Shown here: positions 1,207 through 61,746 of the stretch, one piece after another | How the letters are laid out: each line of letters begins with the position of its first letter | How positions within the stretch are numbered: the first letter of the stretch is position 1 | Assembly: GCF_000756375.1 (NCBI RefSeq) | Contig: NZ_JNFD01000014.1 | Span: 1 to 64,000 of the forward strand | From: Sphingopyxis sp. LC81 | GTDB lineage: Bacteria; Pseudomonadota; Alphaproteobacteria; Sphingomonadales; Sphingomonadaceae | Length of the DNA stretch: 64,000 nt | Direction of reading: 5' to 3' | Program-made: the position numbers and the translations under genes | Notes under the pieces: generated by a model | Told to the model about the DNA's origin: nothing | The model's database searches: none | The model's input: only the letters and a program-made list of their open reading frames with translations

Positions 1207-1917
1207 ATGATCGGCGCCATGCTGACCATGCTTCTTTCCGCGCTCGCGCTCGCCGCCCAATCGGCTCCCGTCCCGCCGCAGGCGACGCAATTGCCGCCCG
1301 CTACGCTGCCGCCGATTCCCGCGCCCGTCACCCCGGTGGTCGAGGCCGACACGCGGCCCTATGTCGCGCTCGCCACCGATCTCGGGACGATCACATTGCG
1401 GATCGAAAACAAGCGTGCGCCGATCACCGCCACCAATTTCCTCCGCTATGTCGATGCGAAGCGGATGGACGGATTTAAATTCTATCGCTCGACCAAAAGC
1501 TGGGGACCGGCGAACCAGCTGGTGCAGGCGGGCAACCGCGGCGATGCGCGCAAGAATTTTCCGCCGATCGCGCACGAGCCGACGACGAAGACGGGGCTGA
1601 CCAACTGCAAGGGCGCGCTGTCGATGGCGCGGCTCAACCCCGGCGATGCAACGAGCGATTTCTTCCTGCTCTTGTCCGACATCAAGGGCTTCAACGCCGA
1701 CGCGCCCGGCGGCGACGGCGCGGGTTTCGCGGTGTTCGGCGAGATCGTCGGCGGCGCCGACATCGCCGAGGCGATCTTCAACGCCCCGATCTCGCCGACC
1801 GCTGGCGAGGGTGTGATGGTCGGCCAGATGCTCGAACCCCAGGTCACGATCAAGACCGCGCGCCGCGTCCCCGCGCCCGTTGGCGCTCCGCAAGGGTGTG
1901 TCGTCAAGGCGCCGTAA
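1207..1917 (+). CDS. Secreted cyclophilin-type peptidyl-prolyl isomerase
   Basis: A cyclophilin-fold prolyl isomerase, likely periplasmic. The N-terminus is a signal peptide (about residues 1-18, ending AAQSA), followed by a proline-rich linker (20-45) and one cyclophilin domain to the C-terminus. Typical blocks are present: VALATDLGTITLRI, the APITATNFLRYV helix, FKFYRS with the catalytic-type arginine, GALSMAR, and the SDFFLLLSD strand. The usual IQGGD is replaced by LVQAG, so this is a divergent cyclophilin. An in-frame ATG at 1219 would also leave a good signal peptide. The role, folding of envelope proteins, is inferred; it lies just upstream of bamD, an outer-membrane assembly gene. Confidence 0.9.
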   Translation: MIGAMLTMLLSALALAAQSAPVPPQATQLPPATLPPIPAPVTPVVEADTRPYVALATDLGTITLRIENKRAPITATNFLRYVDAKRMDGFKFYRSTKSWGPANQLVQAGNRGDARKNFPPIAHEPTTKTGLTNCKGALSMARLNPGDATSDFFLLLSDIKGFNADAPGGDGAGFAVFGEIVGGADIAEAIFNAPISPTAGEGVMVGQMLEPQVTIKTARRVPAPVGAPQGCVVKAP

Positions 1918-1978
1918 AGCTGCGCCGGACCCCCATCATTTATTTTGCGTTCATCCGCGCTGTGGCTATACCGCGCGC

Positions 1979-2773
1979 ATGACTCAACATGCCCCTTCGC
2001 GCGCGACCCTGCGCCTGCTCGCCGCCGCACTTGCGATTACCCCCATGCTGGCGGCCTGTGCCGGGGGCGGCAATGTGAAGAAGGACACGCGTTACGTCGC
2101 GCGCGACGTCAACACGCTGTACCGCGCGGCGCAGGACCGCCTCGAGCGCCGGCAGTACGGCCTCGCCGCGGCACTGTTCGACGAGGTCGAGCGCCAGCAT
2201 CCCTATTCGCCGTGGGCGCGCCGCGCGCAGCTGATGAGCTCGTTCAGCTATTATATGGACCGCGAATATACCCCGGCGATCGAGGCGGCGCAGCGCTTCC
2301 TCGCGATCCATCCGGGCAACAAGGACGCGGCCTACGCCTATTATCTGATCGCGCTCAGCTATTATGAGCAGATCAGCGATGTCACCCGCGACCAGAAGAT
2401 CACGCAGCAGGCGTCGGCCGCGCTCGGCGAAGTGATCCGCCGCTACCCCGACAGCCGCTATGCGTCGGATGCGCGGCTCAAGGTCGACCTGGTGCAGGAT
2501 CATCTGGCGGGCAAGGAAATGGAAATCGGCCGTTTCTATCAGCGCAGCTCGAACTGGCTCGCAGCGTCGATCCGCTTCCGCGAGGTCGTCGACAAATATC
2601 AGACGACGAGCCACGCGCCCGAGGCGCTCTACCGCCTGACCGAATCCTATCTCGCGCTCGGCATCCCCGCGGAAGCGAAGAAGTCGGCCGCGGTGCTCGG
2701 CGCCAACTATCCCGGCAACGAATGGTATGCGCGCGCTTACAAGCTGATGCAGAAGAACGCACCGAGCGCCTGA
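1979..2773 (+). CDS. bamD: Outer membrane assembly lipoprotein BamD
   Basis: BamD is the essential lipoprotein partner of BamA in the complex that inserts beta-barrel proteins into the outer membrane. The start at 1979 gives 264 aa with a lipoprotein signal ending in the lipobox LAAC (Cys27). Tetratricopeptide-like repeats follow, with hallmark blocks YRAAQDRLERRQYGLAAALFDEVERQ-like and QHPYSPWA. Further blocks are AIEAAQRFLAIHPG, DVTRDQKITQQA and RRYPDSRYASDA. The length matches the family. It precedes recN by 47 bases on the same strand, a gene order common in alphaproteobacteria. Confidence 0.96.
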   Translation: MTQHAPSRATLRLLAAALAITPMLAACAGGGNVKKDTRYVARDVNTLYRAAQDRLERRQYGLAAALFDEVERQHPYSPWARRAQLMSSFSYYMDREYTPAIEAAQRFLAIHPGNKDAAYAYYLIALSYYEQISDVTRDQKITQQASAALGEVIRRYPDSRYASDARLKVDLVQDHLAGKEMEIGRFYQRSSNWLAASIRFREVVDKYQTTSHAPEALYRLTESYLALGIPAEAKKSAAVLGANYPGNEWYARAYKLMQKNAPSA

Positions 2774-2820: not shown

Positions 2821-4491
2821 GTGCTAACCGCTCTATCTATCGCCAATATCGTCCTGATCGAACGGCTCGACCTCGATTTCGAGGCCGGGCTGGGCGCGCT
2901 GACCGGCGAAACGGGGGCGGGCAAGTCGATCCTGCTCGACGCATTGGGCCTCGCGCTCGGCGCGCGCGCCGACAGCGCGCTGGTGCGGCAGGGCACCGAC
3001 AAGGCGCAGGTGACGGCGAGTTTTGTCGCGCCCGCACCCGGTACGAAGCTTGCCGCGCTGCTCGCCGAAAACGAGATTGCGCTGGAAACCGGCGAACCCT
3101 TGCTGATCCGCCGTACGCTCAAGGCCGACGGCGGCAGCCGCGCCTTCATCAATGACCAGCCCTGTTCGGCGGCGCTGCTGCGCGAAGTCGGAACCTATCT
3201 GGTCGAAATCCACGGCCAGCACGACGACCGCGGCCTGCTCGCCCCCGCGGGGCACCGCGCGCTGCTCGACGCTTATGCGCGCGCCGATACCCGCGGCGTT
3301 ACGGCCGCCCACGCCGCATGGCGCGCGGCCGAGGACAGGCTCGCCGCTGCGCGCGCCGCTATTTCGGAAGCCGAACGCGACCGCGAATGGCTCGAGCATT
3401 GCGTCGCCGAACTGCAGACGCTGGCTCCCCAACCCGGCGAGGACGCCGAACTCTCCGAAGCGCGCGCCACGATGCAAAAGGGCGAAAAGGTCGCGGGTGA
3501 CCTCGGCGCGATCATGGAAGCGTTCGAGGGCAGCGACAGCGGTCCCGCGCAACTGCGCGGTGCGGCGCGGCGGCTCGACCGGCTCGCGGGCGATCATCCG
3601 TTGCTCGCCGAAGCGCTCGCGGGGCTCGACCGCGCGATCATCGAGGCCGACGAGGCCGAGAGCAAATTGCACGAAGCCGCGCGCGCGATGGAATATGATC
3701 CCGAGCGGCTCGAGGCGACCGAGACGCGCCTGTTCGAACTGCGTGCGATGGCGCGCAAGCACAATGTCCAGCCCGACGAACTCGCCGAACTCACCGGCAC
3801 GCTCGCGGCAAGGCTCGACGCGATCGAAGGCGGCAGCGCGGGGCTGGCCAAGCTCGAAACCGCGGTCGCCGAAACCGCCGCGGCTTATACCCACGCCGCG
3901 ACGGCACTATCCGACCAGCGCAGCAAGGCCGCGACCCGCCTCGATGCCGCGGTCGCGGGCGAACTCGTGCCGCTGAAACTCGACGCCGCGCGCTTCCAGA
4001 CGCTTGTCGAGCGCCTCCCCGCCGAGCGCTGGGGGTCGGAGGGCATGGACCGCGTCGAATATCTCATCTCGACCAACCCCGGCGCGCCCTTCGCGCCGCT
4101 CGCCAAGATCGCCTCGGGCGGCGAACTCTCGCGCTTCATCCTCGCGCTCAAAGTCGCGCTCGCCGAAGAGGGCGGCGCCGACACGATCATCTTCGACGAA
4201 ATCGACCGCGGCGTCGGCGGCGCGGTCGCCTCGGCGATCGGTGAGCGGCTCGCGCGCCTTGCGGGCGCCGGAAAACAATTGCTCGCGGTGACGCACAGCC
4301 CGCAGGTCGCCGCCAAGGGCGCGGCGCATTTCATCATCGCCAAATCGAGCCAGGGAACGGTGACGCGCACCAGCGTCCACGCGCTCGACGAAGCCGGCCG
4401 CCGCGAGGAAATCGCGCGCATGCTCTCGGGCGCCGAAGTCACGGCCGAGGCGCGCGCGCAGGCCGAGAGGCTGCTGGAGGTCGCGGTGTGA
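2821..4491 (+). CDS. recN: DNA repair ATPase RecN
   Basis: An SMC-like ATPase that holds DNA together during double-strand-break repair. GTG start; 556 aa is the normal length. The N-terminal half-ATPase has Walker A GETGAGKS (residues 29-36) and a coiled-coil arm spans the middle. The C-terminal half-ATPase has the signature ASGGELSRF and Walker B TIIFDEIDRGVGG (about 456-468), followed by LLAVTHSPQVAA. The stop overlaps the next gene's GTG start by 4 bases (4488-4491), so recN is translationally coupled to the acetyltransferase. No LexA site was recognised upstream. Confidence 0.97.
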   Translation: MLTALSIANIVLIERLDLDFEAGLGALTGETGAGKSILLDALGLALGARADSALVRQGTDKAQVTASFVAPAPGTKLAALLAENEIALETGEPLLIRRTLKADGGSRAFINDQPCSAALLREVGTYLVEIHGQHDDRGLLAPAGHRALLDAYARADTRGVTAAHAAWRAAEDRLAAARAAISEAERDREWLEHCVAELQTLAPQPGEDAELSEARATMQKGEKVAGDLGAIMEAFEGSDSGPAQLRGAARRLDRLAGDHPLLAEALAGLDRAIIEADEAESKLHEAARAMEYDPERLEATETRLFELRAMARKHNVQPDELAELTGTLAARLDAIEGGSAGLAKLETAVAETAAAYTHAATALSDQRSKAATRLDAAVAGELVPLKLDAARFQTLVERLPAERWGSEGMDRVEYLISTNPGAPFAPLAKIASGGELSRFILALKVALAEEGGADTIIFDEIDRGVGGAVASAIGERLARLAGAGKQLLAVTHSPQVAAKGAAHFIIAKSSQGTVTRTSVHALDEAGRREEIARMLSGAEVTAEARAQAERLLEVAV

Positions 4492-59089: not shown

Positions 59090-59773
59090 ATGCTCCTTTC
59101 AGATCGTGTTCTCTTCCTCGACGGCGAGGCCCTTGTCATCGACAAGCCTGCGGGCCTTCCCGTCGATGCGCCGCGCGACGGCAGCCTCAGCCTCGAGAAC
59201 CACCTCGACCTCCTGAAGTTCGGCTTCAAACGCTGGCCGCTTCCCGTCCACCGGCTCGACCGCGACACCTCGGGCTGCCTGCTCCTCGCGCGCAATCCCA
59301 AAGCGCACGGCCGTTTCACCCGCGCATTCGAAAGCCGCGAAGTCGAAAAGCAATATCTCGCGATCGTCGACGGCGTGCCCGACGGCGACGGCGGCACGAT
59401 CGACATTGCACTCGCCAAAGTTTCGACCGCCGAAGAGGGCTGGCGCATGGTCGGCGATCCGCAAGGCAAGCCCTCGGTCTCGCATTGGGAAAAGCTCGCG
59501 GTCGTCGGCGACCGCAGTCTGCTGCGCTTCCGCCCCGAAACCGGTCGCACCCACCAGCTCCGCGTCCACGCGCTCGAAGGGCTCGGTTTCCCGCTCGTCG
59601 GCGATCCCGTCTACGGCCGCGGCGGTACGAAAACGCGCACCTTGCTCCACGCCGAACGGCTGGTCGTAAAACGTGACGTCAAGCCGTCCATAATTGCCGA
59701 GGCGCCGTTCCCCGACAGCTTCATCGCCTTGGGCTTCGCGGCCCCCGAAGGCGCATCGCCGACCCGTGGCTGA
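59090..59773 (+). CDS. RluA-family pseudouridine synthase
   Basis: Isomerises uridine in rRNA or tRNA. 227 aa, a short form without the S4 RNA-binding domain. Catalytic motif HRLDRDTSGCLL with the active aspartate; TGRTHQLRVHALEGLGFPLVGDPVYG is the other signature. It is closest in size to RluA/TruC types. Its stop overlaps the next gene by 8 bases. Confidence 0.92.
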   Translation: MLLSDRVLFLDGEALVIDKPAGLPVDAPRDGSLSLENHLDLLKFGFKRWPLPVHRLDRDTSGCLLLARNPKAHGRFTRAFESREVEKQYLAIVDGVPDGDGGTIDIALAKVSTAEEGWRMVGDPQGKPSVSHWEKLAVVGDRSLLRFRPETGRTHQLRVHALEGLGFPLVGDPVYGRGGTKTRTLLHAERLVVKRDVKPSIIAEAPFPDSFIALGFAAPEGASPTRG

Positions 59774-60167
59774 CATCCCCGAAAGCGCGATCAGCGAGAA
59801 GTTTCTCGCCGGCACGGGGCCGGGCGGTCAGAATGTCAACAAGGTCGCGACCGCGTGTCAGCTGCGCGTCAATGTCTATGCGCTTGGCCTCACCCCCGAT
59901 GCCTATAAGCGCCTGAAAACCCTCGCGGGCAGCCGGATGACGACCGAGGGCGAACTCGTGATCCTTGCGCGCCGTTTCCGGACGCAGGAAGCGAACCGCG
60001 CCGACGCCCGGCAACGCCTGTCTGAACTGATCGACACCGCGCTCGTCCGCCCCGAACGCCGGATCAAGACCAAGCCGAGCAAGGCGGCGAAGGCGAAGCG
60101 CGTCGACAGCAAGAAAGCGCGCAGCACGGTCAAGGCCGGCCGCGGACGGATACGCGGAACCGACTAA
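59766..60167 (+). CDS. arfB: Ribosome-rescue peptidyl-tRNA hydrolase ArfB
   Basis: Frees stalled ribosomes by hydrolysing peptidyl-tRNA. With GTG 59766 (overlapping the upstream stop by 8 bases) it has 133 aa. The catalytic GGQ lies in GTGPGGQNVNKVATACQLR. The C-terminal tail rich in lysine and arginine (KTKPSKAAKAKRVDSKKA) is the part that enters the empty mRNA channel. Confidence 0.95.
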   Translation: MADIPESAISEKFLAGTGPGGQNVNKVATACQLRVNVYALGLTPDAYKRLKTLAGSRMTTEGELVILARRFRTQEANRADARQRLSELIDTALVRPERRIKTKPSKAAKAKRVDSKKARSTVKAGRGRIRGTD

Positions 60168-60174
60168 CCTCGCG

Positions 60175-60762
60175 ATGACCAGTCTCTACCGCCTCGATGC
60201 CCCCGCCAGCACGATCGCCGCGGCGTTCGGCGCCGAGGCCGGCAACGACCCTTGGACCGGCGATTATGTCGCGCCGGGCCGTCCCGCGCCGGTGATCGTC
60301 AGCGACGGCCGCGGCGGATCGCGGCGTTATCTGCGCCCGAAACTCTGGGGCGTCCCGCCGCCGCAGGGCGACCGCCCGGTCACCGCCGTCCGCAATCTCG
60401 CCAGCCCCTTCTGGATCGGCACGCTGCGCCACGCCGAACTGCGCTGCCTGATCCCCGCGACCGCCTTTTCCTATTGGTCGGGTGCCGAAGGCGCGCGGCG
60501 CCAGCACTGGTTCTCGGTGTCGTCGCGGCCGGTGTTCGCTTTCGCCGGAATCCATCGGCAGGGCGATGACTGGCCCTGCTTCGCGGTCCTCACGACCGAT
60601 GCCAACCGGCTGGTCGCGCACCATCAGCCAAAGGGCATGCCGGTGATCCTTCATCCCGAGGATTATGCCACCTGGCTGAGCGGCGAATGGCGCGCCGCCG
60701 TGGCGCTTGCGGTCCCTTTTCCCAGCCAGTTGATGGCGGTCGCCGACACCCCGCCGGTGTAG
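60175..60762 (+). CDS. SRAP-fold protein lacking the catalytic cysteine
   Basis: A 195-aa relative of the HMCES/YedK SRAP proteins that trap abasic sites in single-stranded DNA. The fold blocks are present: YVAPGRPAPV, KLWGVPPP, LRCLIPATAF, FAFAGIHR, CFAVLTTDANRLV, and HHQPKGMPVILHPEDYATWL with the histidine. But the invariant Cys2 is Thr2 (the protein starts MTSLYRL, not MCGR), and the catalytic glutamate (FYEW/FEW) is replaced (FSYW). It is probably unable to form the DNA-protein crosslink. It lies 7 bases after arfB. Confidence 0.82.
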   Translation: MTSLYRLDAPASTIAAAFGAEAGNDPWTGDYVAPGRPAPVIVSDGRGGSRRYLRPKLWGVPPPQGDRPVTAVRNLASPFWIGTLRHAELRCLIPATAFSYWSGAEGARRQHWFSVSSRPVFAFAGIHRQGDDWPCFAVLTTDANRLVAHHQPKGMPVILHPEDYATWLSGEWRAAVALAVPFPSQLMAVADTPPV

Positions 60763-60851: not shown

Positions 60852-61181
60852 GTGTTGGGGAATCGCACCATCGAAACCAGGAAAGCGCCCACAGCCGGGC
60901 GCGGCGCCGAGCGCGCACCCGTGACCGCACGCGCGCGCTTCCGCGAACCGGGGCTGAACCCCTTCGACGTCGAACTGTTCGACCTGTCGTCGACGGGCTT
61001 CCGCATGGTCACCTTTTTCCGGCCGGACATCGGTAAGCATATCTGGGTGAACCTGCCCGGACTCCAGCCGTTGGAAGCCATCGTCCGCCGCGCCGACGGG
61101 AACAATTATGGCTGCGAGTTCGTCAACCCGCTCCACCCGTCGGTGGCAAAGCATCTGCAGGTAAAGCTGCGCGGCCAGTAA
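60852..61181 (+). CDS. PilZ-domain protein
   Basis: A 109-aa single-domain PilZ protein. The c-di-GMP motifs are partly preserved: an arginine-rich segment TARARFREPG, where the RxxxR motif sits, and DLSSTGFRM for D/NxSxxG. GTG start after AGGGA. It probably reads the c-di-GMP pool made or broken down by proteins such as the GGDEF-EAL protein at 48.6 kb. Confidence 0.85.
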   Translation: MLGNRTIETRKAPTAGRGAERAPVTARARFREPGLNPFDVELFDLSSTGFRMVTFFRPDIGKHIWVNLPGLQPLEAIVRRADGNNYGCEFVNPLHPSVAKHLQVKLRGQ

Positions 61182-61187
61182 ACCGGC

Positions 61188-61613
61188 TCAGCCCTCCGCC
61201 TTCTCGGATTTTTTCAGGATGTGCTTCCACTCGGCGGGCGTCACGCGCCCGACCGACAAGCGCGACTGGCGGATCAGATCCATGTCGGCGAGCCCCGGAT
61301 CGGCCTTGATCGCCGCCAGCGTCACCGGATTGGCGAGCGCACGCACAGGCGCGACGCGTACCACGACCCATGGCGAGCCTTTTTCGGCGGTCGGATCTGG
61401 AAAGCTTTCCTCGGTGATCTCCATGATCCCGACGCATTCCTTGCCGATATTGCTGTGATAGAAGAGCGCCTCGTCGCCGACCTTCATCGCCATCAGGTTG
61501 AGTTTGGCGGTGTGGTTGCGCACCCCGTCCCACATCCCCGTGCCTTCACGCACGAGCTGGTCCCACGGATAGGCGTCGGGTTCGGATTTCATCAGCCAAT
61601 ATTGCTTGCTCAT
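61188..61613 (-). CDS. EVE-domain protein
   Basis: A 141-aa protein made of one EVE domain, a PUA-like fold that binds modified bases in DNA or RNA. Family blocks: MSKQYWLMKSEPDAYPWDQL, MWDGVRNHTAKLNLMAMKVGDEALFYHS, and GIMEITEESFPDPTAE. Convergent with PilZ (6-bp gap) and divergent from the oxygenase gene. Confidence 0.93.
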   Translation of the reverse strand: MSKQYWLMKSEPDAYPWDQLVREGTGMWDGVRNHTAKLNLMAMKVGDEALFYHSNIGKECVGIMEITEESFPDPTAEKGSPWVVVRVAPVRALANPVTLAAIKADPGLADMDLIRQSRLSVGRVTPAEWKHILKKSEKAEG

Positions 61614-61746
61614 GGGCCGGGGCTTAGCCCAGCGATGCGCGCCGCGAAACCGCCTTTTTCCCTTTAACCGCGGGCGCACAGCGCCTAAATCGCGACTCAT
61701 GATGCGCCGGGCCGGCGCCGCCCCTTATCAAATGGACTTCTCTCGC

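Follow-up and report, generated by a model that had tools for sequence, protein, structure and literature searches.

An SRAP homologue of Sphingopyxis that has lost its catalytic residues, and the conserved Cys2-less subfamily to which it belongs

SRAP proteins are thought to use one chemistry, and the residue at its centre, Cys2, has been called absolutely conserved by Aravind et al. (PMC3765255) and invariant in a later account (PMC9436759). In YedK, the amine of Cys2 attacks the abasic aldehyde and the thiol then closes the thiazolidine, with Glu105 serving as the main acid/base and His160 aiding ring opening (PMC9436759). As described there, no stable crosslink forms without Cys2 and lyase activity alone is left; YedK C2A is a lyase that works through its N-terminal amine, and C2A/E105Q is 25-fold slower than C2A (PMC9436759). 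Mutation of the Glu, His, or Asn of YedK and HMCES lowers crosslinking while DNA binding stays intact, although N75A alone has only a modest effect on crosslinking by YedK (PMC9436759). Many family members are associated with SOS polymerase genes (PMC3765255). The window analysed here, a 64,000-nucleotide stretch of DNA from Sphingopyxis sp. LC81, encodes an SRAP homologue with threonine as its second residue.

By sequence and by predicted fold, the product of this gene is a true SRAP-fold protein, as the first-pass annotation had held from the translation. Its match to Pfam SRAP (PF02586) scores 66 bits, above the cut-off of 27.1, and no NCBIfam model matches at E 0.001. The nearest solved structures by sequence are 2aeg (E 1.2e-9) and then 2f20. 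An AlphaFold2 model (mean pLDDT 88.4, from an input alignment of 21 rows) superposes on 2aeg with Z 23.6 over 188 residues at 2.4 Å, on 2f20 with Z 23.5, on HMCES with Z 21.7, and on YedK with Z 21.6; with 1zn6 included, scores range from 21.0 to 23.6 across 181-190 residues. The best non-SRAP structure reaches a Z of only 2.4, and Foldseek agrees. The closest named relatives are Sphingopyxis proteins, with 95% identity over the best segment to that of Sphingopyxis sp. Root154. An alternative start that exposes a cysteine, which the first-pass annotation had named among the findings that would refute it, is ruled out: the frame opens at its first ATG/GTG/TTG, no such codon lies in frame upstream, and the first cysteine of the protein is Cys91.

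Alignment to YedK through Cys2-type intermediates indicates that all four catalytic residues are gone: Cys2 is replaced by Thr2, Asn75 by Ala71, Glu105 by Tyr100, and His160 by Gln151 (Table 1). The first-pass annotation was right about the threonine and the missing glutamate, overlooked the asparagine, and was mistaken in taking the later histidine as kept, since both histidines of the motif AHHQPKGMP precede the His160 column; the relatives reading RYQPHAMP and SVHPKAMP settle the register there. Its central proposal of an SRAP homologue without catalytic residues is thus borne out beyond what it had claimed, and a large subfamily shares the loss. With none of these residues left, the protein is very unlikely to crosslink and unlikely to act as a lyase; by its four defining residues it falls outside the crosslinking class, though it is an SRAP homologue by sequence and fold. 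What is kept lies elsewhere. Arg77, Pro40, Trp106, and Arg162 of YedK are taken here to be DNA-contact residues, and the first three have equivalents in Arg73, Pro34, and Trp101, with Trp58 and Gly59 also kept and Lys153 at the Arg162 position. An active crosslinker with a shifted site, built for example on His150 next to the lost histidine position or on Cys91, is extremely improbable. Two histidines do stand immediately before Gln151, but the only N-terminal nucleophiles are the amine and hydroxyl of Thr2, and Cys91 also occurs in 16 of 16 Cys2-type rows, so it is no replacement nucleophile.

Table 1. Features of the locus and of the other SRAP-like genes in the same genome. Positions without a prefix are those of the window; L001 and L002 are separate loci with their own numbering.
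Feature	Position	Strand	Remarks
RluA-family pseudouridine synthase	59090..59773	+	context only
arfB, alternative ribosome rescue	59766..60167	+	NCBIfam NF006718, 145.8 bits (cut-off 100); GTG start inferred from a relative
Cys2-less SRAP-fold protein	60175..60762	+	195 aa plus stop, ATG start
Thr2 codon (ACC)	60178..60180	+	position of the crosslinking Cys2
Ala71 codon	60385..60387	+	YedK Asn75 position, by alignment via Cys2-type intermediates
Arg73 codon	60391..60393	+	YedK Arg77 equivalent, kept in 67/67 Cys2-less rows
Tyr100 codon	60472..60474	+	YedK Glu105 position, by alignment
Trp101 codon	60475..60477	+	YedK Trp106 equivalent, kept in 67/67 Cys2-less rows
Gln151 codon	60625..60627	+	YedK His160 position, by alignment
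PilZ-domain protein	60852..61181	+	context only
EVE-domain protein	61188..61700	-	context only; close downstream of the SRAP gene
Intact SRAP, paralog C7	L001 1423-2094	-	Cys2, Asn, Glu, and His present
SRAP-like gene beside C7	L001 2116-2628	-	without Cys2, Glu, and His; Asn column outside the alignment
Intact SRAP, paralog C38 (MCNLYT)	L002 1501-2148		Cys2, Asn, Glu, and His present
SRAP-like gene near C38 (MSRLH)	L002 70-723		none of the four catalytic residues kept

When 396 genomes of the order were searched with a profile built from the group, 133 gave matches at E ≤1e-25, with 69 places scoring at least 233 bits and the next at 204 bits. In a class-wide sample, four of 385 genomes matched at E 1e-35, all four in the same family as the Sphingopyxis protein. 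Seventy loci were read, namely the 69 profile places and one more, each with its start assigned to the ATG/GTG/TTG closest to the aligned first residue; L107 could not be given such a start and was counted as Thr2 from a CTG placed by homology. Cys2 is present in three of these 70 relatives and absent from 67. Residue 2 is Thr in 51 rows, Pro in nine, Cys in three, Ile and His in two each, with a single row apiece for Leu, Gln, and Asn (a tally of 73 for this residue also takes in three sequences from outside the group, found in the genome of the Sphingopyxis protein). All four threonine codons are in use (ACC 26, ACG 14, ACA 9, ACT 2). The 67 Cys2-less rows, which span ten genus codes, retain the Asn in no case, the His in one, and Glu or Asp in 30 (Glu in 29), whereas the three Cys2 rows keep Asn and Glu in 3/3 and His in 2/3. 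The equivalents of Arg77 and Trp106 occur in 67/67 Cys2-less rows and that of Pro40 in 66/67, while the Arg162 position varies (Arg and Lys in eight rows each, Asp or Glu in 32).

A scan of named genomes, which overlaps the numbered ones in part so that the counts are not summed, kept the best 80 of 241 relatives. Nine have Cys2, 68 are Cys2-less, and three without an identifiable start (L210, L211, L213) were excluded from the residue-2 counts; all 80 carry the Arg77 equivalent. Within this best 80, the nine Cys2 loci have Asn and Glu throughout and His in seven, and the 68 Cys2-less loci have Asn in one (L251), His in five, and Glu in 24. Four of those five histidine-keeping loci are titled Sphingopyxis. 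A rule that the His is never kept without Cys2 does not hold in either set (1/67 and 5/68). Among the titles of the Cys2-less named loci are Sphingopyxis, Sphingobium, Novosphingobium, Sphingorhabdus, Aurantiacibacter, Pontixanthobacter, and Erythrobacter.

The loss is concentrated at the active site above what chance would give, judging from the 47 columns in which 14 or more of the 16 Cys2-type relatives agree. Retention of at least 90% in Cys2-less rows was found for 25 of 43 non-catalytic columns and none of the four catalytic ones (Fisher P 0.041). The five least-retained columns are Cys2 (0/67), Asn75 (0/67), His160 (1/67), the residue following Cys2, and the residue three before His160; the Glu105 column holds Glu in 29/67. 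The median pI is 9.0 in the 67 Cys2-less rows versus 7.0 in 13 other Cys2 rows.

Could such proteins simply be functionless, decaying relics? With all four catalytic residues gone, a variable N-terminus, and one further lineage shortened (L136-L140, L143), decay might be suspected, but this reading is disfavoured and highly improbable. Besides Met1, 24 columns are kept in 67/67 Cys2-less rows from those ten genus codes, and dN/dS is low in the nine of 18 close pairs that are unsaturated (0.062-0.149 by NG86, 0.044-0.095 by YN00), the other nine being saturated. Cys2-less SRAPs are under purifying selection in the measurable pairs.

A single loss of Cys2 was considered and set aside. The first tree placed 74 Cys2-less rows in one clade (95/88), but its alignment included the catalytic columns. 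The second tree was made with these columns removed, the long-branch L142 omitted, and 14 hand-picked rows added (six Cys2-type and eight with unusual residues). On the best such tree Cys2 changes three times, Asn four times, His five times, and Glu 11 times, and two of the three Cys2 changes sit on independent, well-supported paths. With the catalytic columns out, a topology that unites all 81 Cys2-less rows is rejected (p-AU 0.0138) and one that unites the main 74-row group is not (p-AU 0.36), for groups defined after a tree had been inspected. Because the single clade is rejected, the active site has probably been emptied on two or more occasions, once in the main group that includes the Sphingopyxis protein and once in a Novosphingobium lineage (L234, L136-L140, L143). 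The members of this second Cys2-less lineage are mostly shorter. Outside the tree set, a protein on a Novosphingobium plasmid (L258; NZ_CP039697.1, 156102-156602) adjoins a pentapeptide-repeat gene and may belong to the same lineage.

Removal of the initiator methionine exposes a threonine at residue 2, and is not expected when that residue is Ile, Leu, Gln, His, or Asn. Fpg is a parallel for abasic lyases that act through an N-terminal amine. A thiol-free abasic-site lyase, in which the freed amine of Thr2 or Pro2 condenses with the abasic aldehyde to a Schiff base and the strand is cut, would resemble the action of YedK C2A through its N-terminal amine (PMC9436759). The 51 Thr2 and nine Pro2 rows among the 70, with every threonine codon in use, agree with this, as do the Glu or Asp kept in 30 of those 60 rows (9/9 for Pro2). 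The Sphingopyxis protein could likewise expose Thr2, but its Glu105 column is Tyr100, and the slowing of C2A by E105Q (PMC9436759) speaks against this reading. Furthermore, seven of the 70 rows carry a second residue with which methionine removal is not expected. A tie between the kept Glu and an exposable N-terminus was examined and dropped: Glu or Asp occurs in 0/7 rows without and 30/60 with a removable methionine (Fisher P 0.014), but L199 and L234 are counterexamples and independent tree pairs give no support. Thr2 or Pro2 members with Glu could be lyases, though the tree pattern is not supportive; as an account of the Sphingopyxis gene and its relatives, a lyase is distinctly unlikely.

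The surroundings of the gene point away from the SOS response. It sits, tightly packed, in a row with arfB and a pseudouridine synthase gene and apart from SOS genes, as the first-pass annotation had stated; its neighbours are rluA, arfB, PilZ, and EVE genes. We take GTTCN7GTTC to be the alphaproteobacterial LexA box. Neither an SOS gene nor such a box was seen upstream, and the one GTTCN7GTTC/GAACN7GAAC site in the window lies at 60945 within the PilZ gene, where about two would be expected by chance (an estimate). The order azoR-LigB-rluA-arfB-SRAP-PilZ-EVE is mostly kept in the genus: among its 13 Cys2-less loci, rluA and arfB lie upstream in 12 and EVE was assigned in nine. None of the loci read in other genera has the rluA/arfB arrangement, and in 27 of the 70 loci, from other genera, thiC lies upstream within 4.5 kb on the opposite strand. 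The arfB/rluA context is genus-specific and is therefore no pointer to ribosome rescue, a link that was dropped as a general explanation.

A gene of the UDG superfamily lies downstream on the same strand in eight of the 70 loci (L077, L080, L081, L082, L084, L086, L098, L106), all with one genus code. Its distance from the SRAP gene is smallest in L077, L098, and L106, with PF03167 confirmed for L106 only, and in seven of the eight neighbouring SRAPs residue 2 is Pro and Glu or Asp is retained. As a link to abasic sites this neighbour was rejected, being shared synteny inside one genus.

The genome of the Sphingopyxis protein contains five SRAP-like genes in all. The canonical SRAP that the first-pass annotation proposed to look for is present twice among the four others (C7 and C38; Table 1). 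In a census of 27 genomes picked among carriers of Cys2-less copies, several per genus, a second SRAP with Cys, Asn, Glu, and His occurs in 22. Of the further copies in G408, the one read has Asn in place of His; no other intact SRAP was found in G355, G076, or G298; and in G087 stops interrupt the N-terminal part of the other copy (L165), so that the Cys2-less copy is the sole open one found. In four of 27 genomes, then, no other intact SRAP was found, so a partner is not obligatory. A Pfam search at E 0.001 did not report the Cys2-less copy in six of the 27.

Some intact SRAPs lie next to SRAP-like genes that are apparently inactive. In tandem pairs from four genomes of the same genus and from G085 (L001, L146, L148, L260, L261), an intact SRAP (MCNQ/MCNL) lies just downstream of a Cys2-less SRAP-like gene of 169-184 aa; in the three short partners aligned, the Glu and His columns are substituted and the Asn column falls outside the alignment. 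Some 545 bp upstream of the C7 pair, and separated from it by an ORF, is a GAACN7GAAC site (L001:3173). Head-to-head pairs combine an MCNDY-type SRAP with a Cys2-less SRAP-like gene, as in L172 (962-1453 on the minus strand, 1501-2145 on the plus strand); others are L262, L263, L264, L265, and L269, over six genus codes, the partner start being uncertain in L263 and L264. A model of the G144 head-to-head partner (pLDDT 77.5) aligns with YedK residues 32-204 at Z 14.6. In L004, an MSRLH-type Cys2-less gene (1486-2139, plus strand) and an intact MCNLYT-type gene (2917-3513, plus strand) are separated by about 0.8 kb, and the same genes recur in L002. These L004/L002 genes adjoin an ImuA-like gene (67.2 bits to NCBIfam ImuA, short of the cut-off of 150) and an IMS-family gene, and at the C38 SRAP genes GTTCN7GTTC stands about 30 bp before the ImuA-like gene. 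The Sphingopyxis protein itself looks unlinked to SOS, in contrast to the C7 and C38 paralogs.

Taken as a whole, these observations give about an even chance that the protein is a non-crosslinking, DNA-binding SRAP pseudoenzyme, the DNA-binding part of which we infer. It would retain the SRAP fold and part of the DNA-side surface but could not be joined to abasic sites through a thiazolidine, since four residues needed for that are replaced: the nucleophile (Cys2 to Thr), its contact (Asn75 to Ala), the main general acid/base (Glu105 to Tyr), and the histidine for ring opening (His160 to Gln). Non-covalent binding to abasic or single-stranded DNA would fit the retention of residues equivalent to Arg77, Pro40, and Trp106 as well as the YedK and HMCES mutants that still bind DNA (PMC9436759), and reversible binding would be the simplest function to have been retained. 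When bound, the protein would shield, hand over, or compete for sites that an intact SRAP would otherwise cap covalently. The fold, the subfamily-wide losses, the kept DNA-side residues, the low dN/dS, the basic pI, and the intact SRAP in 22 of 27 genomes argue for this pseudoenzyme; the unconserved Arg162 position, the four genomes in which no other intact SRAP was found, the modest effect of N75A, and the absence of an SOS link argue against it. YedK, with a pI of 5.2, binds DNA though acidic, and pI is therefore weak evidence.

The scaffold may instead have been reused beyond abasic DNA, for RNA binding or for contact with another protein such as a translesion polymerase, which seems doubtful though worth weighing. 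Putative small subunits of Y-family polymerases are among the roles that a survey from 2026 gives to SRAP-like proteins (PMC12926913), Arg is not retained at the position of Arg162, and many columns outside the catalytic set are invariant in the 67 Cys2-less rows, such as D25, W27, S77-W80, R85, and W172. However, S77, P78, and W80 are conserved in Cys2-type relatives too and are thus not new to the Cys2-less group, and no polymerase domain was found among seven scanned neighbours in the window, while many neighbour families in other genera are unannotated.

A broader extension of the pseudoenzyme reading is that Sphingomonadaceae have repeatedly evolved catalytically empty SRAPs as reversible counterparts of the crosslinking ones, which would sit non-covalently on abasic or gapped DNA and decide on permanent capping by an intact SRAP. 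The subfamily described here would do so from an unlinked gene, and separate short Cys2-less SRAP-like proteins from genes that adjoin intact SRAP genes or face them head-to-head, with LexA-like boxes close to some. We regard this scheme as rather unlikely. Within the terms used, the open PMC literature yielded no report of such a division of labour between active and inactive SRAPs, nor of a natural Cys2-less SRAP.

That a subfamily without the catalytic residues is widespread and under selection suggests a second use of the fold. One consequence is that these proteins can be mislabelled or missed when genes are annotated by Pfam or by the name "SOS response-associated peptidase". Natural inactive SRAPs under selection also make a cellular role of non-covalent abasic-site binding directly testable.

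Among known systems, YedK and HMCES share with the Sphingopyxis protein the fold along the full chain (Z about 21), the Pfam SRAP domain, and the equivalents of Arg77, Pro40, and Trp106, but differ in having Cys2, Asn75, Glu105, and His160, and the Sphingopyxis gene lies outside an SOS cluster. Atu5096 of Agrobacterium (2aeg), the nearest solved structure by sequence and tied with 2f20 by fold, has the motifs VR.L..P.W and RCL.P.T.F in common with it and, unlike it, has Glu and His in place (FAEP, IHEKAMP). Within the subfamily itself, the three members of Cys2 type (G050/L114, G221/L117, G090/L135) share DPW, VRN..SPFW.G.LR, and RC..P.T, with identities of 63% for G050 and 59% for G090; they differ in keeping Cys2, Asn, and Glu, with His in two and Asn in its place in G090. 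The closest counterparts in what is missing are the laboratory mutants C2A/E105Q and C2A/H160Q of YedK, whose losses are comparable, whereas the Sphingopyxis protein has a natural, conserved loss that extends to the Asn.
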